Source: a virus. From it: DNA of 23,069 bases. The position numbers and the translations under genes were made by a program. Every line of letters starts with the position of its first letter. Within the stretch, counting starts at the first letter, position 1. The stretch lies in IMG/VR virus record IMGVR_UViG_3300046411_000423, positions 1 through 23,069 of that record; one strand, 5' to 3'. The notes under the pieces were generated by a model. That model was not told the origin of the DNA. It saw only the letters and a list, made by a program, of their open reading frames with translations, and searched no databases. This document shows positions 4,700 through 23,069 of this stretch, piece after piece.

Positions 4700-6454
4700 T
4701 TATCTAGGGTTTTTATATCCGTTATTTGGCATATCTATTGGTCTAGTTGCCACTTCTTTCTCGTTTTTTTCTGGTTTAAAGCCTTCTCTTCTTGCTTTAT
4801 TCACTGATACTTCAGATCTAGGATTTTTAGGATCTGGATTTACGCCTTCTTTTTTACTCATGTAAGTTTTACGCATCCAGTAGTGATGACAATTTGCACC
4901 ACCTTTATATAACCATATATCATAAGTTTTAACTGAACCTTTAGGTCCAAAACCAGCATTTACTTCTTCAGATGACATTTTATCTATATCTTCTTTTCTA
5001 TAAATCTTTTTTGCTGATACCATTTTTTGACAAAAATCTCTAGAATTATCGCTTACTTTTAAAGGTGCATATTGATACCTTACTCTAAACCTTAAACCCT
5101 CTTCGTTTTCTCCATCTTGTTCTGATTTAGCATTTGGTCTTGCAGTACCTGTGCTTGCAAGATTAATCATTTTGTCTAATGTTGTTTCTTGCTCATAATC
5201 TACAGGTCTCTCATCAACTATCTCCCATCCTTCATCTAACATTTCTTGTTCATCTTGTCCTGCTTCAATTAATTCATCAGCAATAGAAGGAGGTGTTTTA
5301 TAGTCAATGTCTGAACTTAACTTTACTCCTGTCTCTTCTTCTCTTGATTCATCTGTTACTGCGTTATCCGTATCAATAAATGCAAGCGGCTGAAGCGTTT
5401 TAAAGTATAAATTAAGGCTTATCTCGTTCACAGCGAGTATAGAATCCATACAGCTAATTAAAAGCTCTTGATAAGGCTTTATTGTAACGTTGTCAAATAA
5501 CAAAGAAGCTGTCTTAATTTCATCAGAGTTTGATCCTAGTCCATTATTTTCTGTTCTTATACCTAAAAGCAATGGTGATGTTACTCTGTGACCTATAATT
5601 AGCTTATTTGCACATTCTGTAGATAAATACTGATAATGTGCTGGTGCATCATTTAAAGGTACGTCATCTATTGTTGTTTTGCTTTCTGCATTGTTGTTAA
5701 ATGCTATAATTACTTTTTCTCCTCTTGCTCCTGTAAGTTTATTCATTACATCTGACTTAACTTGCATTTGCTTTTCTCTATCAGGCACCCCATTGTTAAA
5801 ATTCACAACTTTAGTTCCTGAAAAACCGTTTTGTACATCATTAATTAAATAGTCTGATATTTCTGATTCTAACTCTGCATATGCTAAAGCTCCTTGATAA
5901 TCTACTGGACAATAATAATCATATCCACTTACATATCTCTTTACAACTTTAATTTCTGGTTCTTTACCATTACCAAATCCAAATGCTGCTATTCTTTTAG
6001 GTTTACTATTTGCTTTTATCTTGGTCCAGTCATGAAAATAGTAATAAGCTTCAATTTCTCCGTCATCATTACATTTTTCTGCTCTTAATGTTTGTCTTGG
6101 AAAGTGTTCTGCTTTTACTACTCTGTTGTCTTGGTATAAAACTTGAAAACTACCTTCTCCTAATAATTTAAGATCTAGAATTACGTTTCTTAAATCTTGA
6201 TCTGGAAAAATAGATCTCATTGCTGCATATTCATCTGGCTTTTGTGAGCTGTCTGTTGCATCAATACCTTTTCCATATACTAATTGCGATATTCCTTGAA
6301 TAATTGCATTGTTTGTTGCAGAATTAATAAATAACTTAATTAAATAAGAATAATAATCATTGTTCTCTCCATAATTAACCCAATCCTTATGTTTATCTTC
6401 TGATATTTTAGGTCTATTATATTCTGATAAGTTTACTATGTGTAGATTGTCCAT
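4700..6454 (-). CDS. Portal protein with C-terminal extension
   Basis: 584 residues. Residues 1 to about 370 form the portal core: WVNYGENNDYYSYLIKLFIN, then ATNNAIIQGISQLVYGKGID (the classic entry helix), an LLGEGSFQVLY strand, QTLRAEK, a clip/stem region with LTGARGEKVIIAFNNN, and GHRVTSPLLLGIR with NNGLGSNSDEI. Such proteins form the dodecameric DNA gate at one capsid vertex. An acidic linker (about 375-430) leads to a basic domain (about 450-584) with RVRYQYAPLKVSDNSRDFC, a GFGPKGSVKTYDIWLYKGG segment and an NCHHYWMRKTYM motif whose Cys and His residues might bind metal. I have seen this C-terminal domain in portal or minor head proteins of Bacteroidetes phages. The gene follows a 115-residue structural gene and precedes the connector, but lies downstream of the capsid gene, unlike lambda or HK97. 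Confidence 0.88.
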   Translation of the reverse strand: MDNLHIVNLSEYNRPKISEDKHKDWVNYGENNDYYSYLIKLFINSATNNAIIQGISQLVYGKGIDATDSSQKPDEYAAMRSIFPDQDLRNVILDLKLLGEGSFQVLYQDNRVVKAEHFPRQTLRAEKCNDDGEIEAYYYFHDWTKIKANSKPKRIAAFGFGNGKEPEIKVVKRYVSGYDYYCPVDYQGALAYAELESEISDYLINDVQNGFSGTKVVNFNNGVPDREKQMQVKSDVMNKLTGARGEKVIIAFNNNAESKTTIDDVPLNDAPAHYQYLSTECANKLIIGHRVTSPLLLGIRTENNGLGSNSDEIKTASLLFDNVTIKPYQELLISCMDSILAVNEISLNLYFKTLQPLAFIDTDNAVTDESREEETGVKLSSDIDYKTPPSIADELIEAGQDEQEMLDEGWEIVDERPVDYEQETTLDKMINLASTGTARPNAKSEQDGENEEGLRFRVRYQYAPLKVSDNSRDFCQKMVSAKKIYRKEDIDKMSSEEVNAGFGPKGSVKTYDIWLYKGGANCHHYWMRKTYMSKKEGVNPDPKNPRSEVSVNKARREGFKPEKNEKEVATRPIDMPNNGYKNPR

Positions 6455-6895: not shown

Positions 6896-7450
6896 TTAAG
6901 AGTTACTTCCTTCAGTTGGAGTAGCAAACCCAGCATTAGTTAATGCAGTATCTACATCTGCAGCTGATTCTATAAAGTTTGCTGGAACTTTTTCCTGTGC
7001 AGTGAACGTTAATGTATAACCTGAAAGGTCACCCATTGCTGCTCCTGTTACTATTGTTCCGCCACTTACATCCGCTCCGTTTTCTAACCCCATTATAAAT
7101 AGGTTTTCATTATAATCTTCAACAACAATGTGAGGTCTACCATAAGCTAATAATTTTAACTCTTTGTTGTCCTCTTTTGTAAGTTTTTTAAGTGTAAGAT
7201 TTAATGTTTGCTCAAAGAAAGTTGTTCCGTTTTCTCTAGAAGCATTAATTGTTTGTTCAAATGAAGAATTACCTTTTACTTCGTATTTAAAACTAGCAAC
7301 TGATGTTCCTACGCTATCTACTACATCTGTATCAGTAGAATCGTAAGTAACAGCTGTATAGTCACCGAAATCAGAAATATAAATATTTTTAATTCCACCT
7401 ACTACGTCTTTACAAGGTTCTTTTCTTCCTTTAGTTAAATCACAAGCCAT
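6896..7450 (-). CDS. Probable major tail tube protein
   Basis: 184 residues: MACDLTKGRKEPCKDVVGGI, then KNIYISDFGDYTAV, a SFKYEVKGNSSFEQTINASR strand pair, ENGTTFFEQTLNLTLKKLTK, the short helix EDNKELKLLAYG and a C-terminal GAAMGDLSGYTLTFTAQEKV. This is the beta-sandwich layout with one helix typical of tail tube subunits, and the ENGTT-x-FEQ-x-(L/V)-x-(L/V) and DLSGY-x-LTF-x-(A/G)-x-E motifs are familiar from Bacteroidetes phage tube or structural proteins. It is the first gene after the major capsid gene, with a terminator on both sides, as suits a highly expressed virion protein. Tube identity is inferred from fold pattern and position; a head decoration protein is the alternative. Confidence 0.68.
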   Translation of the reverse strand: MACDLTKGRKEPCKDVVGGIKNIYISDFGDYTAVTYDSTDTDVVDSVGTSVASFKYEVKGNSSFEQTINASRENGTTFFEQTLNLTLKKLTKEDNKELKLLAYGRPHIVVEDYNENLFIMGLENGADVSGGTIVTGAAMGDLSGYTLTFTAQEKVPANFIESAADVDTALTNAGFATPTEGSNS

Positions 7451-9646: not shown

Positions 9647-9847
9647 TTATAATTCTATTTTACTATTATTTTCTTGTAATATATAATCTCCATTTTCTTG
9701 CAACAAAAATCCTATTGGTCCTGTAAGGTTACCTATTCCTTGTCTCATATAATCTTGATCATTGCAACAATCTATTGAATATGTATTACCATCTCTACAT
9801 AAACATGCTCTTTTATTAGAACTAGGTACGTTATATCTTCTTCTCAT
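9647..9847 (-). CDS. Small Cys-rich structural-block protein, 66 residues
   Basis: 66 residues. MRRRYNVPSSNKRACLCRDG and NTYSIDCCNDQDYMRQGIGN give four Cys (C-x-C and CC) close together, which could bind a metal or form disulfides. A C-terminal repeat, LLQENGDYILQEN, follows. Such short ACLC...CC...QGIG proteins recur in Bacteroidetes phage structural regions, without an assigned function as far as I know. The ATG overlaps the protease stop by one base (TAATG), so it is translationally coupled, and the next start follows after three bases. Confidence 0.65.
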   Translation of the reverse strand: MRRRYNVPSSNKRACLCRDGNTYSIDCCNDQDYMRQGIGNLTGPIGFLLQENGDYILQENNSKIEL

Positions 9848-11088
9848 TACTTTATTGGTACACAGTTAGGAACTCTTCTTCCGTTTTTCATTTTAAAACC
9901 TATCATTTCATATCCTGCTTGACAAGGTTTCTTTAATTCTTGTTCATGCGTTTCACAAGGCATAAACCAAGTCTTTCCTTCTACTTCATGTTCGTGAAAT
10001 CCTTCACATCCCATTTCTTCTGCTTTAATTATTGCTTCTTGCTTTGTGTCGTATGCTCTTTTACCATCTATTACAATAGAAGCTAATTTTTCGTCTTTTA
10101 ACTGATCTAAACTTTTTAATTTACTCTCTGCCCAAGACTTTGCAGATTTACCACCCCATAACAAATAAGAAATATATCCACATGCTTCTGTGTCTCCTGT
10201 CTTATAATACTCTTCTGCTCTAGATAAGTAACTATACATTCTTTTTATTGTTTGTACTGATAGTTTTTCTTTTCTTGCTAGTTGTTGAGCTCTTACTTTA
10301 CCAACTTGTGTTGCACATTTGTTGTTAACTTTCTTGTTTAGATCAATTCCTCTCTTTGCGTTGTTAGCAACAGAGTTAGGATAATCGTTATAAGTTTCTA
10401 ACTCTATAGTTTTACCAGACTTGTATCTTTTGTCTTGTTTTATAATTGCTTTTACAGCACTTAATAGTTCTTGTGCATCTTCTTCTTCTATTTTTTGTAT
10501 TTCTTCATCCTTACAAATACATTCTGCTAATTTTTTTTCACAGCCACAATCTGAAAACTTATTTGGCTCATTAGGTCTTTCTAATTTATCCGCAAAGTAG
10601 CCTTCTATTGAAAAGCCTTTAACCTTACCTGTTTTTATATAGTTATCCCATACATCATCATTGTCTACTTTCATAGAAACCATCCAAGTACCTAATGGTA
10701 CATCCATGTCATATAATCTTGTCTTATCTTGCTCACCTTCTACTATCCAGCTCTCTACTACTGTAAGTCCATTTAATGGTGATTCGTGTTCTAATGTAGA
10801 TCTATGTTGTTTAGCTCTTTTTAAGAATAGTTCACTTGCTTTTCTAACTGTGTTTCTTGAAAAGTATATATAATACTCTTTATCACCACTTTTTCTATAA
10901 ATTGGTTTGTTAGGTATTAATGCTGGTCCTAGTAAAAGCTTTTTCTCTTTATCTAGTTCAGCTAATTTAAATTCTTGGTTTTTTAAAAAGACAAAATCTT
11001 CTTGAATTGCTGGGTTTTCTACTATACTTATCGCATCAATTCCTGAAACGTTATCCTCTTCGTCTATAAATAATTCTATGATGTCCAT
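9847..11088 (-). CDS. XkdF-like prohead serine protease with C-terminal extension
   Basis: 413 residues. N-terminal domain (1 to about 172): a strand with GIDAISIVENPAI, then LLLGPALIPNKPIYRK, the helix NTVRKASELFLKRAKQHRST, an EHESPLNGLTVVESWIVEGE block with candidate catalytic His at 101, PLGTWMVSMKV, and VKGFSIEGYF with candidate catalytic Ser at 160. The Ser context matches the S-I-x-G-(F/Y) site of HK97-type prohead proteases, and the overall order is that of the phage XkdF-like protease family. After a Cys-rich linker (about 178-192) the C-terminal half carries a basic helical module (YNDYPNSVANNAKRGIDLNK) and a last segment GYEMIGFKMKNGRRVPNCVP that I know from flavobacterial phage proteins. 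It should cleave scaffold and capsid during maturation. It follows the tape measure and has a promoter-like element at its start. Confidence 0.8.
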   Translation of the reverse strand: MDIIELFIDEEDNVSGIDAISIVENPAIQEDFVFLKNQEFKLAELDKEKKLLLGPALIPNKPIYRKSGDKEYYIYFSRNTVRKASELFLKRAKQHRSTLEHESPLNGLTVVESWIVEGEQDKTRLYDMDVPLGTWMVSMKVDNDDVWDNYIKTGKVKGFSIEGYFADKLERPNEPNKFSDCGCEKKLAECICKDEEIQKIEEEDAQELLSAVKAIIKQDKRYKSGKTIELETYNDYPNSVANNAKRGIDLNKKVNNKCATQVGKVRAQQLARKEKLSVQTIKRMYSYLSRAEEYYKTGDTEACGYISYLLWGGKSAKSWAESKLKSLDQLKDEKLASIVIDGKRAYDTKQEAIIKAEEMGCEGFHEHEVEGKTWFMPCETHEQELKKPCQAGYEMIGFKMKNGRRVPNCVPIK

Positions 11089-11119: not shown

Positions 11120-12832
11120 TTAGTTTCCAAGTGCTGCTTGGTTAACTGTTTTTCTATCTAAAGCTTGTTGACTACTTACATCTGTACTAACTACATAAGC
11201 TCTTACTGGTTTTTGTTGTGCTCCTGCTATTGTTTGTGCTAGTTGACTTTCTGCTGTTGCTCCTACCACATTAAACGCTGGTGGAGTTGATAATGCTGGA
11301 GTAGGTACTGATCCTCCTGTTCCTCCTTTTGCAAAACTTGGTGGTGCTGGTTCTTTAGTTGATGTTATATTTCTAATGTTCGCAAAACCTGCTGCAATAA
11401 CTGATGCTGCACCAATAAATCCAAATATACCTCCTTGACCTAAAGCTTTAGTAGCACCTGCATAAGTGTCTATTATAGCTTGTGTTATAGCTATTGCTTT
11501 TCCATACTTACTGTTTTCTCCAACTAAACTAGCCAATGAACCTAATGCTCCAGTGATAGCTGCTACTTTTGCGTCCGCTATCTCTTTATCTCTTTTCTTT
11601 TCCTTTGCATCAGATTCTGCTTTAAATTTATTTAATTCGTTTTGTGCATCTATTTCTTCTTGTGTGCCTATCTTAAAACTATCTATTCTTGTTTGTAAAG
11701 TTTTCTCTATCTCTAATCTTTCCTCTGCTTCTATTTGTTTTAACTTTTCTAATCTTATTACTTCATTATCTATTAATTCTGCATTTGCTAATTTTGTTAT
11801 TTGTGCTACTTCTTGAACTCCTTGTGCTTTTGAAGTCTCTAAATCAATTAATTCTTTTTCTAATGCTGCTTCATTTGTTAATTGTTCTGATCTTTGTCCA
11901 GCTATTGTTGCTCTTATAGCTGCTAATTCATTTAATGCATCTTTTTTTCTAACTTGTGCATCAACATTATCTTCATCTAATGCTAATTCTGCTTGTGCTG
12001 CATCTACTGCTATTTGAGCATTTTCTAATAGTTTTTTCTCTTGGTCATCTAGTATTGTAGCTAGTTTTTGATTTGCAGCAATTCTTTCTGTAACCGCAAG
12101 CCTTGTGTCATCTCTTAATTGTCTTTGTTGTTCTGCTTGTCTATCATAATCTTCTATTAAACCTCTATTTATTGCTTGTGTTACTTTGTAATCGTTGTTT
12201 AATTTTGTAATGTTTTTAGCTTGGTCTATTGTTGCTTTAGTATATTCTGTTGTTGCTTCTATAACTTCTTTTGTTGTTTCTACAACTTTATCTACTGTAT
12301 CATCTACTCCTGTTAATACATCAACATATTCTTTTCCTGCTTCTTTTACAGAATCAAAAGCACCTTTAAAATCTCCTTTAAATACTTTTACAACAGCTTC
12401 ACTTAAAAACCCTATAACTTCTAAAGCAGAATTCAATCTTTCAATAACATTTTGTTTTATTGCTTTACCAAATGCTTTTAAGTTTTCTACTGGATTTTCA
12501 AATATATCTTTAAAGAAACCTACTACTGTTCCTATATTAGACTCTATAAATACAAATAAATCATTAAAAGCTAACTTTAAAGCTGTGGTAGCTGTAGCAA
12601 AAGTATCTACTACTTTTTGATTAGAAAAGAAAGTGTCTTTAAGTGTATTTAATACTGCATCAAATAATTTTGCTGCTCCAACTCCTTTGAATATAGCGTT
12701 TAAACTAAACATTGATTTACCTGCTGCTTTAGCTCCTTCTTGTATACCTTTAAGACCTACACCAATTGTCTGTAAGTTCTTTTCAGCACCTTTAGCTTTT
12801 ACATTAATATCTATGTTTATTTCTTGTGCCAT
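11120..12832 (-). CDS. Tail tape measure protein
   Basis: 570 residues. The N-terminus MAQEINIDINVKAKGAEKNL with QTIGVGLKGIQEGAKAAGKS is typical of tape measures. Hydrophobic/amphipathic helices follow (SMFSLNAIFKGVGAAKLFDA, NIGTVVGFFKDIF), then a long coiled coil at about residues 210-420 rich in Ala, Glu, Gln and Lys. Next come a membrane-like helical pair (AIAITQAIIDTYAGATKALG and IFGFIGAASVIAAGFANI) and a Gly/Pro/Ala linker. The C-terminus AYVVSTDVSSQQALDRKTVN is one I know from Bacteroidetes phage tape measures. It sets tail length; at about 0.15 nm per residue it implies a tail near 85 nm. Its start overlaps the stop of the 46-residue gene. Unusually, the chaperone gene is about 8 kb upstream, not adjacent. 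Confidence 0.9.
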   Translation of the reverse strand: MAQEINIDINVKAKGAEKNLQTIGVGLKGIQEGAKAAGKSMFSLNAIFKGVGAAKLFDAVLNTLKDTFFSNQKVVDTFATATTALKLAFNDLFVFIESNIGTVVGFFKDIFENPVENLKAFGKAIKQNVIERLNSALEVIGFLSEAVVKVFKGDFKGAFDSVKEAGKEYVDVLTGVDDTVDKVVETTKEVIEATTEYTKATIDQAKNITKLNNDYKVTQAINRGLIEDYDRQAEQQRQLRDDTRLAVTERIAANQKLATILDDQEKKLLENAQIAVDAAQAELALDEDNVDAQVRKKDALNELAAIRATIAGQRSEQLTNEAALEKELIDLETSKAQGVQEVAQITKLANAELIDNEVIRLEKLKQIEAEERLEIEKTLQTRIDSFKIGTQEEIDAQNELNKFKAESDAKEKKRDKEIADAKVAAITGALGSLASLVGENSKYGKAIAITQAIIDTYAGATKALGQGGIFGFIGAASVIAAGFANIRNITSTKEPAPPSFAKGGTGGSVPTPALSTPPAFNVVGATAESQLAQTIAGAQQKPVRAYVVSTDVSSQQALDRKTVNQAALGN

Positions 12833-13851: not shown

Positions 13852-16800
13852 TTATGGACAAGATGGACAACTTACTGTTGATAATGTGTTTGATGTTGAA
13901 TTCCAATAATAATAAGTAGAGAAATCTGCAGTAAAATATTGATCTGCACCTAACAAGCTACTACAAGTATCATTAGAATAAATTACTGATGCTGTAGATA
14001 TATCGTTGCTATCCATATATACTGTTCTAGATACTGTTACATTACAACATACATCTAATGCGCTTGTTGACTTATACAATGTTTGAGAACCACAAGTTAT
14101 TGTTGTTGTAGTAGTTGTAGTAGTTGTTGTAATACAAGAACCTGTAATCGTACCGTATGTTGATGGACTTGTAACTAATGCTGTACCGTTTATGTCATAA
14201 CAATTTGCACCATCCGTAGATATTGTGATGTCTGTGTTACCTACTTGGTAAGCTGAATCTAATTGAACATATGTAGAAAAACCATCACTTTGTCTTTCCA
14301 CTACAAATACATTATCTGGTGCTGGTGTTGTAGTTGTAGGAGGTTGAGTTGTGGTTGTTGTTGTACCTGTACAATCTTCACAATTATCATAACCTATATA
14401 ATCATAAGCTGGTTGACCACCAACACAAGACTGTTGTGAAACCCAAGGAGTGCTTTGATCTCCACTTCCTACTGTTGGATTTTTATAACATTCTCCTGTT
14501 GCTACATTCTTAATTACTGCTGGAAACCCACTTGTTGAATTATTACCTACTGTAAAGGTTTCATCTAAACCTGTTGCACAATCTACATATTCTCTAAATA
14601 CTGTTAATGTTGGTTTTGTTGGAATATTGTTACAAGGATCCGTTGTAGGTTTTGGGGGACAAGTACTAACATTCTCCCAAACTTGCGCTGTGTTTGGTTC
14701 ATAATATCTATAATTAACTAGATCTGTATAGAATCCTTCTGGAGCTGTATTGCTTGTTCCAATATTAGCAGCACTTGTATACATGTTATCATTACTTGTA
14801 GCTGATGATAGTGTTTTATTGTTGTCAAAATAATAATAACCAAATACTCCTTGTGAATCATCACAATATTGAGTTAGAGAATTCCATCCTGTACCTAAAA
14901 AGTATAATCCATTCGCATCAATACAATTTACACACACACTAAAACTAGTACCATTCCAATATCTTCTATCTGTATTGTCGTTATCTAATGAATAATATCC
15001 TGTAGGTGCTGCAGTATTACAATTAGAGTAAGTAAACAAATTAGTTACACTACACCAATTACTGTTAGTTTGTGATAAACCAGCTCCATTTACATAATAG
15101 AAGTTTTTAGATTGTTCATTTTCACAAACATCATTAGATGTAGAATATCTTAAATAAAATACTGATTTAGTTGCTAAACAAGGATCTGTTGTTGTTCCTT
15201 GACCTGTACAAGAATTACATCCAGTTCCTTCTCCATTACCAACTGTAATACCATTATTACTTGCCCAATCAGTTTCAAAAGCTGTTGCAGATGTATAGTA
15301 ACATAAGTTATTTATCTTTATATATGTTCCTGTTGTACTGTTTCCTACTGTAAATGTATCTCTTGATCTTACATAAACTGTTTGACCTGATACTGTTTGC
15401 CCTGAACATCCAGTTACAACATAATAATTATAAACTATTAACTGTATTGTTGCTGCAGTAAAGTCTGTGGTTACTGTTTGGCTTGTTGTAAATGTTCCTC
15501 CTGCATTGTTTACTGTAGGAGCTCCACTAACCCATTCAAATCCTGAATTTAAGCTAATGGTTGTTTGGAAATTAAATACTGTTCCTGCGTTTTGTGTTTT
15601 TACTGTACCATTTAAATCACCTCCTAGTGTGAATCCATCATTAACATTTGGAAACCCTGAAGCTGTAATATTACTTGTGTCTACTGCTAATGTTACATCT
15701 ATAAGACTTTGTGTAGTCCATATAACTGTATGTGTATCGGTTGCTGTTATTGTACCATCTGTTGCTGTACAAGTATATGTGTATGTACCTGCACTTGTTT
15801 CTGTAAACGTTATAATTTGTGTTGATCCACTAGCAGAACCACCTGACCAAGAATAACTTGTTGGTGTAAATCCAGAAGGTAAAGCTGTTAATGTTAAATT
15901 ATTATTTACTGTTTTCTGTGTAGGTCCACTAATAGTCAAGAATTGTGATGTTGCTTGAACTGTACCTGATAAAGTTGTATTAACTGTTAAATTAGAAGTT
16001 CCAACTGTACCTTGTGCATTTTGTATTGTTGGTCCTGATGTAAATTGATAACCACTATTTGCAGTTACATTTGTATTAAATGAATATGTATCTCCTTCTT
16101 GTAATAATTGCGTATCACCTGTTTGGTCCCCTGTTATATTATATCCTGCTGCTGGTCCTGTAATATTATTGATTACATTTAAAGTAATTGTATATGTTTT
16201 TGGTGTCCACAGCACTATATGTGTATCTGTAAACTCTGCACTATCATCACTATCTGTAGCTACACAGGTATATGTAACGTTTCCTGTTGTTGCGTTTGTT
16301 ATTGTTATGCTAGATGTTGTTAATCCTGCTGCATTTCCTCCAGACCATAAATAACTAGCTGTTCCTATAAAGTTATTAGCTGTAGCTGTTAATGTTATAT
16401 CTTCTGTTTGTTGTTGGCTTGTTAATCCAGATATAACTAAACTTCTACCTACATCACAAGTTTTATCTGCAGTAGGTGTTAGACTATCTACAGTACAGAA
16501 CGTAGAATCTGCTGTACATTCAGTACACTCATCTTCGTCTGAAGTTGTAGTTGTTGAAATTGGAGTTGATCCTCCTACACTTATTGTTATGCCGTTTATT
16601 AATTCTAATTTAGATTTTCCTGTGCTAAAATCTGTTTCTATTTGATTTATAGTGTAGTTTCTGTCTGCTATAGCTATAGTATCAGCAAGAATAAACTCTT
16701 GCAACATCTTTAATGGTAAATAAGCCTCTACAGTAGTTAGTCTTCTGTTGTTTTGAAATACTTGTGAAATGTAACTTTGATAATATTGTGCAAACAATGT

Positions 16801-18636
16801 TTTATCAAATGCGTTTGTGTTTGTATACTCGTTTATCTCATTTCTAAAATTATTAGATATTTCACTAATACTGCTATCAATATCCACGCTATTAGACGGA
16901 ATAAAATAACTTGTTATATCAGCATATGTGCCAGCGTTCTCTGTTTCTAAAAATCTAATTGCTGTTGCTGATGTTTGATTATATGAATAAAATAATAAAG
17001 GCTTACCATAATAAGGTTCGTTATTATCATCTACAAACCATCCTACCTGTGGTTCTATTGCTGTACTACCATTATACATTCTTTCATACTTCATATGCTC
17101 AAAAGGAGCGATTACTGAATATATTTCTGGATTTGCATCATAATAATCATCACCTGAATAACTTTCTGTTGCCCAAGATGTATTGTTTATTTGTTCGTGT
17201 TGCTTTGCTAGTTTTGTTTCTAATCCTTCGAATTTGAACTCAACTTCTTTATAAGGTAGTGCTACATCAACTGTACTTTTAGTTACATCTACATTATTTG
17301 TAATATCCCAAACTGTAGTAGAATCAGAATAATATTCATTTAATGTTTTAACTATTATTGTTCCATTTTCTGTATATGCTGTTAGATTAAACATTTTAAA
17401 CAATCCAGTCAAAAAGTCTATTACTTTCATCTCTGGCATTTGCTCACTTATAATAAATGATCTTGTGTTGTTAAAAGTAAATGTACTTGTTAAAGGATAT
17501 GCAGCTGCACTATCAGGATAATATGTAGGATCTAAATCCCATTGTGTGTTCGTAGATAAAGTAAAAGATGTTTCAGCTGAATTTATAAATACAGTATATG
17601 TACCATTACTCAAATAACCATTTAAAGTTATTGATGTTCCGCTTATCACTCTTTGATCAAATGGTTGTCCATCTTTTCTTATTATAACTGTTCCATCAAT
17701 ACTTGTTGTTGATTCTATAGTTAAAGAGTATTGTATTGAGCCTGATGTTACGTTTACTACTTGTAATCTATCTGACTCACTTATTACTTGTGGAATTTCT
17801 CCTGCTCTATCTATAGTAAATCCTGTTACTTGTTTTGTTACTGCTGTTTCTTCAAAAGCTTTACCTTTTTTTCTATGTAGCCACAAATACAAACCATAAT
17901 AAGCACTATTAGTCGTGTTAAAGAAGTCATTACTAAAAGTTAAACCATATTTATCTTCTATAGCTCTTATAATAGCATCTACTCTTATAGCGTATTTTAA
18001 TTCTTCGTAATAAACACCTTGATGATTAGTTCCTGATGGATATAAGTTACCACCTAACGCATCTGGATATACAGCTGTTGTAGAAGCTTCATAATAAAGT
18101 CTTGTAGTGTGTGATATTAATGGTGCTATTATTCCTTGTGGATAGCTAATTGTAGACGCATCTGATCTTGTGTATGTTTTGTTAAGACCACTTTCTAATG
18201 CTGTTTTTACTTCAGAAGCTGTATATGATGAATCAAAAGCAGTTAAATCTAAAGCACTTAAATCATCATCACCTAATAAATCATTTAGGTTAATAGTGTT
18301 TCCAAAGAATGTTATTCTGTATGTATTAGGTATTCCGTCTTGTAAATCTACACCATCTAATTTTATCTTACCTGTTTTAAAAGGTCTGCTGTTAAGTTCT
18401 ATTGTTGAATCTTTTTTTAATCTTGCATCAAAACCATCTGTAATAGAATAATTATAATAGTGTTGAAATATCTTGTTGTTTGTTTTAGAAGCTGGTATAT
18501 TAAAAGTTCTTGTAAAATCTACAAATATTTTAGATATATCTTTTACATTTTGAATTGACTGAATTATGCTTACAGATTCATCATCAAACAAATCTACTCT
18601 TGTTCCTTCTATATATAACTGCAAGTATGCTTTCAT
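13852..18636 (-). CDS. Giant tail protein with Ig-like and Cys-rich repeats (tail hub/tip adhesin)
   Basis: 1594 residues. Residues 1 to about 705 look like a tail hub or baseplate protein: MKAYLQLYIEGTRVDLFDDE, DISKIFVDFTRTFNIPASKT, a DGFDARLKKDSTIELNSRPF segment, MPEMKVIDFLTGLFKMFNLT and LPLKMLQEFILADTIAIADR with a KLELINGI end. A Cys linker (about 705-725) leads to two tandem units of about 165 residues (about 732-897 and 898-1062); each has a Cys-containing Ig-like part ending TDTH-x-V-x-W and a second beta domain with GYQF/GFEW. Residues about 1070-1594 alternate two Cys-rich modules joined by Thr/Pro linkers, including a run of ten Thr near 1503-1512, and the protein ends CPSCP. The N-terminal part would attach to the tail; the rest should display outward and bind host. 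The next gene is a glycosyltransferase. Confidence 0.78.
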   Translation of the reverse strand: MKAYLQLYIEGTRVDLFDDESVSIIQSIQNVKDISKIFVDFTRTFNIPASKTNNKIFQHYYNYSITDGFDARLKKDSTIELNSRPFKTGKIKLDGVDLQDGIPNTYRITFFGNTINLNDLLGDDDLSALDLTAFDSSYTASEVKTALESGLNKTYTRSDASTISYPQGIIAPLISHTTRLYYEASTTAVYPDALGGNLYPSGTNHQGVYYEELKYAIRVDAIIRAIEDKYGLTFSNDFFNTTNSAYYGLYLWLHRKKGKAFEETAVTKQVTGFTIDRAGEIPQVISESDRLQVVNVTSGSIQYSLTIESTTSIDGTVIIRKDGQPFDQRVISGTSITLNGYLSNGTYTVFINSAETSFTLSTNTQWDLDPTYYPDSAAAYPLTSTFTFNNTRSFIISEQMPEMKVIDFLTGLFKMFNLTAYTENGTIIVKTLNEYYSDSTTVWDITNNVDVTKSTVDVALPYKEVEFKFEGLETKLAKQHEQINNTSWATESYSGDDYYDANPEIYSVIAPFEHMKYERMYNGSTAIEPQVGWFVDDNNEPYYGKPLLFYSYNQTSATAIRFLETENAGTYADITSYFIPSNSVDIDSSISEISNNFRNEINEYTNTNAFDKTLFAQYYQSYISQVFQNNRRLTTVEAYLPLKMLQEFILADTIAIADRNYTINQIETDFSTGKSKLELINGITISVGGSTPISTTTTSDEDECTECTADSTFCTVDSLTPTADKTCDVGRSLVISGLTSQQQTEDITLTATANNFIGTASYLWSGGNAAGLTTSSITITNATTGNVTYTCVATDSDDSAEFTDTHIVLWTPKTYTITLNVINNITGPAAGYNITGDQTGDTQLLQEGDTYSFNTNVTANSGYQFTSGPTIQNAQGTVGTSNLTVNTTLSGTVQATSQFLTISGPTQKTVNNNLTLTALPSGFTPTSYSWSGGSASGSTQIITFTETSAGTYTYTCTATDGTITATDTHTVIWTTQSLIDVTLAVDTSNITASGFPNVNDGFTLGGDLNGTVKTQNAGTVFNFQTTISLNSGFEWVSGAPTVNNAGGTFTTSQTVTTDFTAATIQLIVYNYYVVTGCSGQTVSGQTVYVRSRDTFTVGNSTTGTYIKINNLCYYTSATAFETDWASNNGITVGNGEGTGCNSCTGQGTTTDPCLATKSVFYLRYSTSNDVCENEQSKNFYYVNGAGLSQTNSNWCSVTNLFTYSNCNTAAPTGYYSLDNDNTDRRYWNGTSFSVCVNCIDANGLYFLGTGWNSLTQYCDDSQGVFGYYYFDNNKTLSSATSNDNMYTSAANIGTSNTAPEGFYTDLVNYRYYEPNTAQVWENVSTCPPKPTTDPCNNIPTKPTLTVFREYVDCATGLDETFTVGNNSTSGFPAVIKNVATGECYKNPTVGSGDQSTPWVSQQSCVGGQPAYDYIGYDNCEDCTGTTTTTTQPPTTTTPAPDNVFVVERQSDGFSTYVQLDSAYQVGNTDITISTDGANCYDINGTALVTSPSTYGTITGSCITTTTTTTTTTITCGSQTLYKSTSALDVCCNVTVSRTVYMDSNDISTASVIYSNDTCSSLLGADQYFTADFSTYYYWNSTSNTLSTVSCPSCP
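14101..14130 (-). repeat. Poly-threonine codon microsatellite
   Basis: Ten consecutive Thr codons (mixed ACA and ACT) in the giant tail protein. The tract separates two Cys-rich modules. Near-repetitive codons make length variation by slippage possible. Confidence 0.8.
14318..14371 (-). repeat. Thr/Pro-rich mucin-like linker
   Basis: Encodes TGTTTTTTQPPTTTTPAP, a mucin-like linker between Cys-rich modules of the giant tail protein; Thr next to Pro is the usual setting for O-glycosylation in other systems. Confidence 0.7.
15440..16440 (-). repeat. Tandem Ig-like double-domain units
   Basis: Two in-frame units of about 165 codons, the boundary near 15940. Paired landmarks are LVISGLTSQQQ with LTISGPTQKTV, SYLWSGGNAAG with SYSWSGGSASG, VTYTCVATD with YTYTCTATD, TDTHIVLWT with TDTHTVIWT, and GYQFTSGPTIQNAQGT with GFEWVSGAPTVNNAGGT. 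Clear internal duplication at the protein level. Confidence 0.8.
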
Positions 18637-19574: not shown

Positions 19575-20105
19575 CTATTGTTTTATTGTATAATCTAAAA
19601 ATTCTTCTATATCTAATCCGTATGCTTCTAATAATTCCTGTGGTAATCTTTTAAATCCTTTCTCAAAAGGTTTTGTAAAAAATAAGCTTGCTTTTATTCC
19701 TTTATTCCATACTGATCTAGATATTACGTATGCTGTTGATTCATAACTTGTAAACCTTCCTTTAGCATCTCTAAATTGAAATCTTCTTGCTTCTACCCAC
19801 TTTCTAATTCCACCAGATAATCCACCTTTCTTGCCTGTACCAGTTCCAAACTTAAATGGACTATTAGTTGATTCTGGATATGTGCTTGTTGCTCCTTTAA
19901 CCCCTTGATCTTGGAACTTACCATAATCTTCCATCTCAAACTTTAACCTAAATGAATTAGGCATAACATCCACTATACCTTTTAGAGAATTATAAAGCTG
20001 TTTAGAAACATTCTTATTCTTTCTAGTTAGATTAGATCTAGACTGTTGAATTACATAATCCTTAAATGCTTCTAATGCTTTTCTTGTGTTCTCGTTGTTT
20101 AGCAT
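19575..20105 (-). CDS. HK97 gp10-like neck / tail completion protein
   Basis: 176 residues. N-terminal helix NTRKALEAFKDYVIQQSRSN, then basic LTRKNKNVSKQLYNSLKGIV, a strand FRLKFEMEDYGKFQDQGVKG, the Gly-rich loop KFGTGTGKKGGLSGGIRKWV, and a helix/strand end with TAYVISRSVWNKGIKASLFF and TKPFEKGF. The Y-x-x-F-x-x-x-GVKG, (Y/R)KWV and G-(I/T)-(K/P)-x-x-x-F motifs match gp10-type minor tail or head-tail joining proteins (YGxxxExG in HK97). It overlaps the tail-terminator gene by seven bases and sits in the tail block. A head-tail connector role is the alternative. Confidence 0.72.
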   Translation of the reverse strand: MLNNENTRKALEAFKDYVIQQSRSNLTRKNKNVSKQLYNSLKGIVDVMPNSFRLKFEMEDYGKFQDQGVKGATSTYPESTNSPFKFGTGTGKKGGLSGGIRKWVEARRFQFRDAKGRFTSYESTAYVISRSVWNKGIKASLFFTKPFEKGFKRLPQELLEAYGLDIEEFLDYTIKQ

Positions 20106-20554
20106 ATTGTCATATCGTTTTGTATCTGTACATCAAATGTTGCTACCCATCCTGCCAGCTTGTTTTCAAATCTATCTACAAAAGGCTCACATGCTACATC
20201 TGATTCTACTTGATACTTGTCTGTGTATAAGTCTCCTCTTTGTAGTAAGCTTACTAATCTATCTAAAACTCCTAGTTGTGTGTTTAGCACATCTTGCTCA
20301 TTGTCATTGCCTCTAAATAAGTCTGTTGTTTCTTCTTTGCTTATGTCTACAATATCCATACACATTACAGAAATATTAAATGTTAGCACTTTAGAATTTA
20401 TAGTACATTGATTTACCATCACGTGGGATAATGGAAATATAGTCTGTTTATTAAGATCTACATTATCAAAGCTTCCATATGAAACATTATTTACAAATGG
20501 TTCTGCTTCTAGTGTTTCCTTTATCTTGTTTGTTATGTTATAAAATCCTGTCAT
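20099..20554 (-). CDS. Tail terminator-like protein
   Basis: 151 residues: MTGFYNITNKIKETLEAEPF with VNNVSYGSFDNVDLNKQTIF (the helix plus strand opening of tail terminator proteins), PLSHVMVNQ, a hydrophobic strand LTFNISVMCMDIVD, a DVLNTQLGVLDRLVSLLQRG helix and a final WVATFDVQIQNDMTIC strand. The order matches gpU/HK97 gp10-neighbour tail terminators, which cap the tube and join it to the head. The start ATG overlaps the TGA of the -1 frame of the preceding chaperone (ATGA at 20551-20554), which couples it to the frameshifted product, not to the shorter frame-0 product ending 82 bases earlier. Confidence 0.7.
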   Translation of the reverse strand: MTGFYNITNKIKETLEAEPFVNNVSYGSFDNVDLNKQTIFPLSHVMVNQCTINSKVLTFNISVMCMDIVDISKEETTDLFRGNDNEQDVLNTQLGVLDRLVSLLQRGDLYTDKYQVESDVACEPFVDRFENKLAGWVATFDVQIQNDMTIC

Positions 20555-20811
20555 CTGGTTTTCTGTTTAATTAAATTTTTCTCTGTCTGTAATTTGTCTT
20601 GCTCATAAGCTAAATAGTATAATGATGAATGTACATTTAATTCACTGACAGATTCAAGTTTGGTTGCATCTCCTCCAGCCAATCTATATAACGAGTTATA
20701 CCATCCCCACTTCCTAGCAAATCCTCCCTCTGCTGAATAGTCATTCCCTTGATCGCCTCCTGATTCAAAGATTTCAGGATAGTTTTCAGTAATTCGTTCT
20801 TTAAATTGTAA
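20551..20811 (-). CDS. Tail assembly chaperone, -1 frame extension (programmed frameshift)
   Basis: 86 codons plus TGA in the -1 frame of the chaperone gene, entered after CTT-TTT-TTT at the T9 tract. The frame contains no ATG or GTG and only one TTG; an upstream in-frame TGA lies at 20839-20841, so it cannot be translated alone by an ordinary start. It encodes LQFKERITENYPEIFESGGD, then FARKWGWYNSLYRLAGGDAT with KLESVSELNVHSSLYYLAYE and QDKLQTEKN. The KWGWY-x-x-(L/I)-x-x-LA-x-GD-x-x-K-x-x-x-V pattern is familiar from short proteins following this gene in related phages. TGA overlaps the next ATG as ATGA. Joined to residues 1-163 of frame 0 it gives a 249-residue GT-like chaperone (20551-21299). 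An indel error in the homopolymer is the alternative. Confidence 0.78.
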   Translation of the reverse strand, partial: LQFKERITENYPEIFESGGDQGNDYSAEGGFARKWGWYNSLYRLAGGDATKLESVSELNVHSSLYYLAYEQDKLQTEKNLIKQKTR

Positions 20812-21299
20812 AAAAAAAGTATAGAACCCATAACTATATCAAGCGGCATCTGTTTATATTTTTCAGAATCTTCAGATCCTTTATAGTCTTCTATTATGTA
20901 TTTATCTTTTAATGTGTCTTTTATTGGTCTGTATAATACTGCCATTGCTTTATGCATGTTGCTCCAATCTCCTAGTGTAGTGTCTAAATCTATATACTCA
21001 CCTAGTGTTATTTTATCAAGATCTGGTACAAAACCATATCCAACACCATCCATTGTAAAAGTTGGTACAAGCTTTGCTTCTTTGCTAAAAAGTTCATTTA
21101 TAATCCTTACTATCTTCATTACGCTGTTATATTCTACTTTAATAACCTTCTGAAGATTAAGATTACAGAATATTTCTACAGTCTTATGTAATAGAAAATT
21201 AGAGTTCTGATTAGCCTCTGTATTTATCTTATGATACTTCTGGTATTGTTCAAGACTAATCTCTCTTAAAGATTCTGGTACTTGTATCTTTACTTTCAT
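20637..21299 (-). CDS. Tail assembly chaperone, frame-0 product
   Basis: 220 residues. MKVKIQVPESLREISLEQYQ with KYHKIN opens a mainly helical protein; an EIFCNLNLQKVIKVEYNSVM helix, TFTMDGVGYGFVPDLDKITL with GEYIDLD, a WSNMHKAMAVLYRPI motif and MPLDIVMGSILFF follow. The PESL-x-(E/D)-I-(S/T)-LEQYQK opening and the FVPDLDKI-x-GEYIDLD / M-x-K-x-MAVLYRPI blocks are features of a Bacteroidetes phage protein in this genomic position. Frame 0 continues 57 codons beyond the slippery tract and ends in EEMQPNLNLSVN. A -1 shift at the T9 tract (20810-20818) would instead make a 249-residue protein. This two-product layout is that of lambda G and GT, which guide the tape measure during tube assembly. 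A promoter-like element and a terminator lie directly upstream. Confidence 0.72.
   Translation of the reverse strand: MKVKIQVPESLREISLEQYQKYHKINTEANQNSNFLLHKTVEIFCNLNLQKVIKVEYNSVMKIVRIINELFSKEAKLVPTFTMDGVGYGFVPDLDKITLGEYIDLDTTLGDWSNMHKAMAVLYRPIKDTLKDKYIIEDYKGSEDSEKYKQMPLDIVMGSILFFYNLKNELLKTILKSLNQEAIKGMTIQQREDLLGSGDGITRYIDWLEEMQPNLNLSVN
20810..20818 (-). promoter_or_regulatory. Slippery T9 tract for -1 frameshift
   Basis: Frame-0 codons CTT-TTT-TTT-TAC contain the perfect heptamer T-TTT-TTT; both tRNAs can re-pair after a one-base backward shift. A nine-base homopolymer would also permit transcriptional slippage. Confidence 0.7.
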
Positions 21300-22208: not shown

Positions 22209-23069
22209 TTACCAAATGTGATATTCTCCTTTATTAGGATCTTGCAGCTGGGAAGTTAATGCATATCTAGCTGCATCTATTGCGTGATCTCCAGACATAG
22301 GGTTAGGCTTTTGTAGTGTGTTACCTTGTTTATCTTTCATCCAGACATAACCCTGAAGCTCTTTAATTAAGTTCTTTGATCTTTGTGTAACAAATATATT
22401 GTTTTGGTTTATAAGGTTTATTCCATAAACAATACTATCTCTTCCTTTTGTAACTGGAAAGACTTGATGACCATATGTATTTAACTCTGCTATTGTTTTA
22501 GGTTCAGCTGAATCTGCCCATAAGCTTCCTAGTATCTGATTGTTTTTAAGGTATTGGCTTATGTGTGAGTTTAACATTCCTTTTCTATAGAGTACCTCAT
22601 CAAATATGTATGCATCATCTAGTTTATATAGTGCTACTAATGCTGCTTCGTCTACTGAATATCCTAGATCTAATCCATGACATAATAACCTAGCATGAGG
22701 TGGTATAACATCTATTTGTTTCCAATCTGGAATACAAGCTCCTTCAAGTGTTCCTATCTCACCTAGTCCATATACTCTCCACCAATTAGCCCAATAAGAG
22801 CTTTTAGAAGCCTTTAGACGAGCTTTCTCTATTTCTTTGATAATACTATCAGGAAGTTCATTATTGTCCTTATAAGTTAATGTAATGAAGTCTGTATCTT
22901 CTGTATTGATTAATTCTTTATCTACCCAGAATAAATTCGTAGGATTATAATCAAGCCAAATATCTCCAGAGGTTCTTATTGATAATTGCTGGTAAGCTTC
23001 AAAGCTAACATTGTTACACTCATTAATAAATAGATCTGTTCTTCTAGAACCTCTTAACTTATCTGGTTG
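22209..23069 (-). CDS. terL: Terminase large subunit, 5' end off window
   Basis: 286 C-terminal residues are visible, open to the right edge. The first residues, QPDKLRGSRRTDLFINECNN, carry the Walker B-like hydrophobic-acidic stretch of the packaging ATPase (LFINEC), followed by the coupling region with SGDIWLDYNPTNLFWVDKEL. The nuclease domain then shows an RNase-H-like acidic triad: HGLDLGYSVDEAALVALYKL (first Asp near 22668), WADSAEPKTI (second, near 22515) and GDHAIDAARYAL (third, near 22275). This motor packages DNA through the portal and cuts it. The missing part should hold Walker A. The NEC-N active-site form is familiar from Bacteroidetes phage terminases. No small subunit is visible; it may lie to the right. 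Confidence 0.93.
   Translation of the reverse strand, partial: QPDKLRGSRRTDLFINECNNVSFEAYQQLSIRTSGDIWLDYNPTNLFWVDKELINTEDTDFITLTYKDNNELPDSIIKEIEKARLKASKSSYWANWWRVYGLGEIGTLEGACIPDWKQIDVIPPHARLLCHGLDLGYSVDEAALVALYKLDDAYIFDEVLYRKGMLNSHISQYLKNNQILGSLWADSAEPKTIAELNTYGHQVFPVTKGRDSIVYGINLINQNNIFVTQRSKNLIKELQGYVWMKDKQGNTLQKPNPMSGDHAIDAARYALTSQLQDPNKGEYHIW

Follow-up and report, generated by a model that had tools for sequence, protein, structure and literature searches.

A conserved T9 run joins two overlapping reading frames in a large phage gene family and may set a protein ratio through polymerase slippage

The window analysed here is the whole 23,069-nucleotide stretch of a viral record (IMG/VR IMGVR_UViG_3300046411_000423). 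On its minus strand it carries a gene with a tract of exactly nine T's (20810-20818), read in the gene's own frame (the 0 frame) as the codons CTT-TTT-TTT-TAC. The -1 frame at this place is closed upstream by a TGA (20841-20839), ends downstream at another TGA (20553-20551), and contains neither ATG nor GTG. A shift at the run would join 163 codons of the first frame to 86 codons of the second, giving a protein of 249 aa whose junction falls between ...SILFF and LQFKER. The -1 stop TGA and the ATG of the next gene overlap as ATGA. A preliminary description of this DNA, made from its letters, had reported the T9 tract in its codon context, and also the 86-codon frame that lacks ATG and GTG, its blocking TGA and the ATGA overlap; we found the tract exactly as described and confirmed every detail of the second frame. 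The features of the locus are the following.

20637..21299, minus strand: 0-frame gene encoding the 220-aa short form, phrog_32199 (function unassigned); pN/pS 0.135 upstream of the run
20810..20818, minus strand: putative T9 slippage run (CTT TTT TTT T), T9 or T10 in homologues
20551..20811, minus strand: -1 extension of 86 codons, from TTA (20811-20809) to the stop TGA (20553-20551), with a conserved KWGWY segment, predicted to give the 249-aa form; pN/pS 0.176 past the 0-frame stop
20640..20809, minus strand: dual-coding overlap, both frames open and under purifying selection
20839..20841, minus strand: TGA that shuts the -1 frame upstream and so leaves the -1 segment without a start
20099..20554, minus strand: next gene, 151 aa, phrog_30964, in ATGA overlap with the -1 stop; synteny in the homologous loci L204 and L123
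19575..20105, minus strand: following gene, 176 aa, phrog_29822, a conserved neighbour in L204 and L207

In the window, the frameshift gene lies between terL (22209-22577) and small putative neck genes. L204 has the order terL, frameshift gene, phrog_30964, phrog_29822, phrog_35281 as well, and L123 and L207 have part of it. A tape-measure-like gene (11120-12832) is found 8 kb downstream of the frameshift gene, and positions 6896-7450 encode a candidate tail tube protein. Elsewhere in the window, positions 9847-11088 encode a 413-aa protein that combines a phage serine protease domain (Peptidase_S78_2) with a DUF3721 at its C-terminus, and positions 13852-18636 encode a structural protein of 1594 aa that has stretches rich in threonine (TTTTTTTTTT) towards its C-terminus.

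Shuffling of the AT-rich window showed that a T9 run is by itself not rare, and the case for a frameshift therefore depends on conservation. We scanned IMG/VR with the two halves of the protein and then with alignments of ever more distant members. Several of these scans each gave more than 580 relatives, of which up to 80 per scan were taken, and to these were added seven loci from metagenome-assembled genomes (MAGs; five labelled as Bacteroidota or Flavobacteriaceae genera) and the Nonlabens phage P12024L. The frames of each locus were subjected to profile searches and duplicates were removed, resulting in 161, then 296, and finally 336 distinct sequences; the first 296 represent 59 lineages under 60% identity. 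Two of the MAG contigs that carry the frameshift gene, L207 and L208, are labelled Euryarchaeota and Pseudooceanicola and are probably misbinned phage contigs. The virus in the window probably infects Flavobacteria-like bacteria, and many members of the phage family probably infect Bacteroidota.

In all 336 distinct homologues, with up to 80 relatives taken per scan, the second segment is read in the -1 frame relative to the first, and the junction is an unbroken T9 or T10 in every one of them, with no exception. The loci that lacked the second segment all stop at a contig edge. Since the scan patterns for the first half exclude the junction, the search itself did not select for this invariance. 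For comparison, 843 kb of other long ORFs from these loci hold only two T-runs of at least nine.

A missing T through sequencing error was considered and is excluded by the agreement of the 336 sequences; homologues with T10 need a -1 shift as well. The preliminary description had named a single 249-codon ORF as an outcome that would count against a hidden extension, and no homologue in the family sampled has one. A related explanation is phase variation, in which replication slippage alters the length of the run and turns the long form on or off, or an artefact of sequencing that mimics it. Homopolymers are mutable, and T9 and T10 both occur in the family; nevertheless, all 336 sequences need the -1 shift, the T10 cases have a compensating context, and the in-frame variants that would be expected in close relatives were not seen. 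We consider such an origin highly improbable.

The -1 segment might instead be a separate small gene, translated either from a start codon in its frame or through coupling to termination in the 0 frame. This is how the segment is annotated in GenBank for Nonlabens phage P12024L (P12024L_41, 55 aa), and the length of the PHROG family phrog_38404, 55 residues, agrees with that annotation. However, an ATG for the -1 frame is present upstream of the run in just 2 of 161 sequences and in the first part of the overlap in 1 of 161, and the -1 frame of the window has no ATG or GTG at all. In the sampled alignments the conserved -1 protein starts at the run itself, with FFL invariant, and thus ahead of any possible start; furthermore, conservation of T9 would be without reason if the segment were a gene of its own. 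Homologues with two separately started genes, the other outcome foreseen as contrary to the extension, are thus nearly absent, and a separate gene is scarcely credible to us.

Substitutions were analysed in 39 independent close pairs. Upstream of the run they track the 0 frame (third position 0.235, pN/pS 0.135), and past the 0-frame stop they track the -1 frame (third position 0.177, pN/pS 0.176); between these, in the overlap, the three codon positions are all slow and pN/pS is near 0.5 in both frames. When the -1 frame was resampled synonymously in 65 lineages, the 0 frame stayed open for 16 codons on average, compared to 55 observed; permutation within the region gave 33 codons against the same 55. 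In the reverse resampling, the -1 frame stayed open in 1.5% of resamples, or in 9% under within-region permutation. The overlap of about 58 codons is thus dual-coding, with purifying selection on both frames. Taken together, the conserved -1 relation and the selection on two frames strongly support the hidden -1 extension, with forms of 220 and 249 residues, that had been proposed at the outset. These sequence patterns imply that a short form of 220 aa and a long form of 249 aa, extended in the -1 frame, are both made.

The same long protein can arise in two ways, either from a ribosome slipping back on T_TTT_TTT or from an RNA polymerase adding one U. These mechanisms differ in what they need conserved: a ribosomal heptamer calls for 7, 8 or 9 T's, the number being set by codon phase, while polymerase slippage requires the length of the run in any phase. 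Across the family, the run is found in three codon phases, namely xTT TTT TTT T, which is common, TTT TTT TTT followed by a base other than T, and xxT TTT TTT TTG. Whatever the phase, its length falls below nine in none of the 336 homologues. The two ends of the run compensate for each other: the preceding codon is TTT in all 11 sequences in which the following codon starts with a base other than T, as against 10 of the 285 others (by lineage 6/6 versus 1/53; Fisher 1.6e-7, a value that ignores kinship). A tree of 90 fused proteins requires at least 13 changes of run class, none of them to below nine, and its starred branches alone force several such changes.

The second Phe codon of the run is informative in the same way. 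A TTC there would change the residue in neither frame (TTC; CTA) and would leave the heptamer intact, and TTC makes up 121 of 484 (25%) upstream Phe codons; yet C at this wobble position occurs in 0 of 58 T9 lineages. After T10 runs, C or G does occur next. Outside the junction, A and T runs of this length are strongly avoided. In the 843 kb of other long ORFs, the T-runs of at least nine number 2 where synonymous shuffles predict 12, and A-runs of at least nine number 14 where 97 are expected, while A8 is only mildly depleted (103 versus 143). The A-runs thus show a sharp threshold, with a roughly sevenfold reduction at nine or more and near-normal numbers at eight, which suggests hosts whose RNA polymerase slips at nine. 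It has been reported that nine is the threshold for slippage, the run length at which selection is seen, in many bacteria (PMC1088944), and the avoidance of such runs in other ORFs fits the threshold expected where polymerase slips.

Programmed -1 shifting by the ribosome, with two Phe-tRNAs slipping back one base on T_TTT_TTT, has to be weighed against this evidence. It is the usual mechanism in genes of this kind, as in many phage tail assembly chaperones, and all homologues carry the T_TTT_TTT heptamer in frame. The two-form architecture is also like that of lambda G/GT (PMC5009743). Yet the heptamer would be satisfied by 7, 8 or 9 T's according to phase, whereas at least nine are kept throughout, and the change of the eighth T to C, which keeps a heptamer, was never found in the 58 T9 lineages. 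Stimulators of ribosomal shifting are likewise missing: a search of 65 lineages upstream and downstream of the run gave no stimulatory RNA structure (mean z about 0), Rfam has no match at the site, and a Shine-Dalgarno-like (SD-like) motif, tried as a candidate stimulator, is near the run in only 8 of 65 lineages and was rejected. In addition, E. coli ribosomes shift poorly on U_UUU_UUU, far less readily than on A_AAA_AAG (PMC5009743). We regard ribosomal shifting as possible but rather doubtful.

A length that is kept while phase is free, ends that compensate, runs that are avoided elsewhere and the lack of stimulators lead us to favour RNA polymerase slippage over ribosomal -1 shifting as the probable mechanism, a preference that comes from patterns of sequence conservation. 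Several observations weigh on the other side. Any T9 also holds an in-frame T_TTT_TTT heptamer; constraint on the amino acids of the two frames can account for the first and ninth T in the common phase; and the changes of run phase cluster in few clades. To our knowledge, moreover, the well-studied shifts in tail assembly chaperones are all ribosomal.

Under polymerase slippage, one gene would yield two proteins through a programmed frameshift at the T9 run. The majority of mRNAs would carry nine U's and be translated into the 220-aa short form. In some transcripts the polymerase would slip and add one U, and ordinary translation would then pass into the -1 frame and produce the 249-aa form, which would end in a helical C-terminal domain of 86 residues. 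Transcripts with one U less or two extra would enter the +1 frame and meet a stop two codons past the run. We observed this +1 stop two codons past the run in the window and at the median of the 296 sequences (TTA then A or G); it may result from dual coding or may guard against other products of slippage, and we do not claim selection for it. The two forms would most likely act like lambda G/GT, with a common N-terminal part and a rare C-terminal extension that would bridge to a second virion protein in tail assembly. The ratio of the two products, like polymerase slippage itself and the chaperone role, is deduced rather than observed.

The preliminary description had called the gene a tail assembly chaperone, an identity that is plausible by analogy. 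The two-form architecture agrees with it, as does one weak structural match; the position of the gene next to terL does not, and no named homologue was found by sequence. We modelled the two halves separately with AlphaFold and obtained moderate to good confidence (pLDDT 83 for the first half and 74 for the -1 half), the -1 half being modelled as helices throughout. Foldseek matched the fold of the first half to many uncharacterised phage proteins, some of 244-267 aa matching both halves, and, weakly, to a named tail assembly chaperone (ctCpR1, E=0.012). Among the former are the viral BFVD entries A0A516L5A8, A0A516L611, A0A6J5N0W0 and A0A6J5MY57 (244-267 aa), whose predicted folds match both halves; judging from these models, the long form may be encoded in a single frame in some more distant phages. 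Profile and fold searches of the PDB (Foldseek, VIA) gave no convincing solved structure for either half, which does not imply a novel fold. Searches of Pfam and NCBIfam returned no match for the frameshift gene family, and PHROGs gave only families of unassigned function, apart from one member's weak match to phrog_166, 'tail protein'. A comparison with lambda G and T by hhalign, a weak test since single sequences were used, detected no similarity. Because the genome position is mismatched and these searches gave no clear homology, we describe the gene as G/GT-like by architecture and do not file it as a member of G/GT.

Frameshifting in tail assembly chaperones is generally attributed to the ribosome. 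In the open-access literature on transcriptional slippage in phage tail genes and on frameshifted chaperones in Bacteroidetes phages, we found no report of this phage gene family. On balance, we lean towards the view that in a very large family of phages, many of them probably infecting Bacteroidota, a G/GT-like protein ratio is set not by the ribosome but by polymerase slippage on an invariant T9, with selection on both frames of the overlap of about 58 codons. If so, the same regulatory end, a fixed ratio of short to long assembly protein, would be attained at another step of gene expression, and 'at least nine T's, any phase' would be a simple motif with which to find hidden genes in viral metagenomes. 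In hundreds of metagenomic contigs and in the cultured Nonlabens phages, the predicted long protein has gone unrecognised: it appears there as two annotated fragments or has no annotation. The predictions are open to direct test in a cultured phage.

The cultured homologue is found in Nonlabens phage P12024L/S, genes P12024L_40/41 (phrog_32199 and phrog_38404), where both the phase of the T9 and the -1 segment match those of the window. Unlike the gene in the window, it is annotated as two hypothetical genes without a frameshift, and its 0-frame tail is shorter (27 codons past the run). In P12024L (positions 5001-5695), P12024L_40 and P12024L_41 are the halves of one T9-frameshifted gene. The 55-aa CDS of P12024L_41 covers just the last part of the -1 segment, a fragment from which phrog_38404 seems to have been built.

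The shift site of lambda G/GT is a mixed heptamer, whereas here T9 is kept by its length. In lambda, G and T overlap by 19 nt and the gene order is V-G-T-H, with G and T flanked by the genes for the major tail protein and the tape measure. Chaperones of this type bind both of these tail proteins and are absent from the virion. The parallel with lambda that was drawn from the sequence stands in part. In both systems a single late-region gene gives a short form and a -1 extended long form (here a predicted pair), and the second frame lacks its own start; here 336 of 336 sequences show the -1 relation, and starts are all but absent among the 161 sequences checked for them. The differences lie in the overlap (19 nt in lambda, about 58 co-selected codons here), in the place of the gene, which here follows terL, in the run, which here appears to act as a slippage site, and in sequence, with no similarity detected between single sequences. 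Frameshifted tail assembly genes are conserved in long-tailed phages, according to Xu, Hendrix and Duda 2004 as cited in PMC5009743.

The genes that use transcriptional slippage include Thermus dnaX (A9), Shigella mxiE (a U run), Citrobacter tssM (A11) and IS elements (PMC1088944, PMC4256274). In this class the mRNA is heterogeneous in run length. They resemble the present gene in having at least nine identical A's or T's at the frame junction, as in all 336 homologues here, in the avoidance of nine-base runs in other coding sequence, and in the use of both products, which for the phage gene is predicted; the length of the phage run is kept across three phases. In contrast, none of Thermus dnaX, Shigella mxiE, Citrobacter tssM and the IS elements is a phage structural gene, and the site described here is held across a very deep phage family, together with an overlap that is dual-coded.
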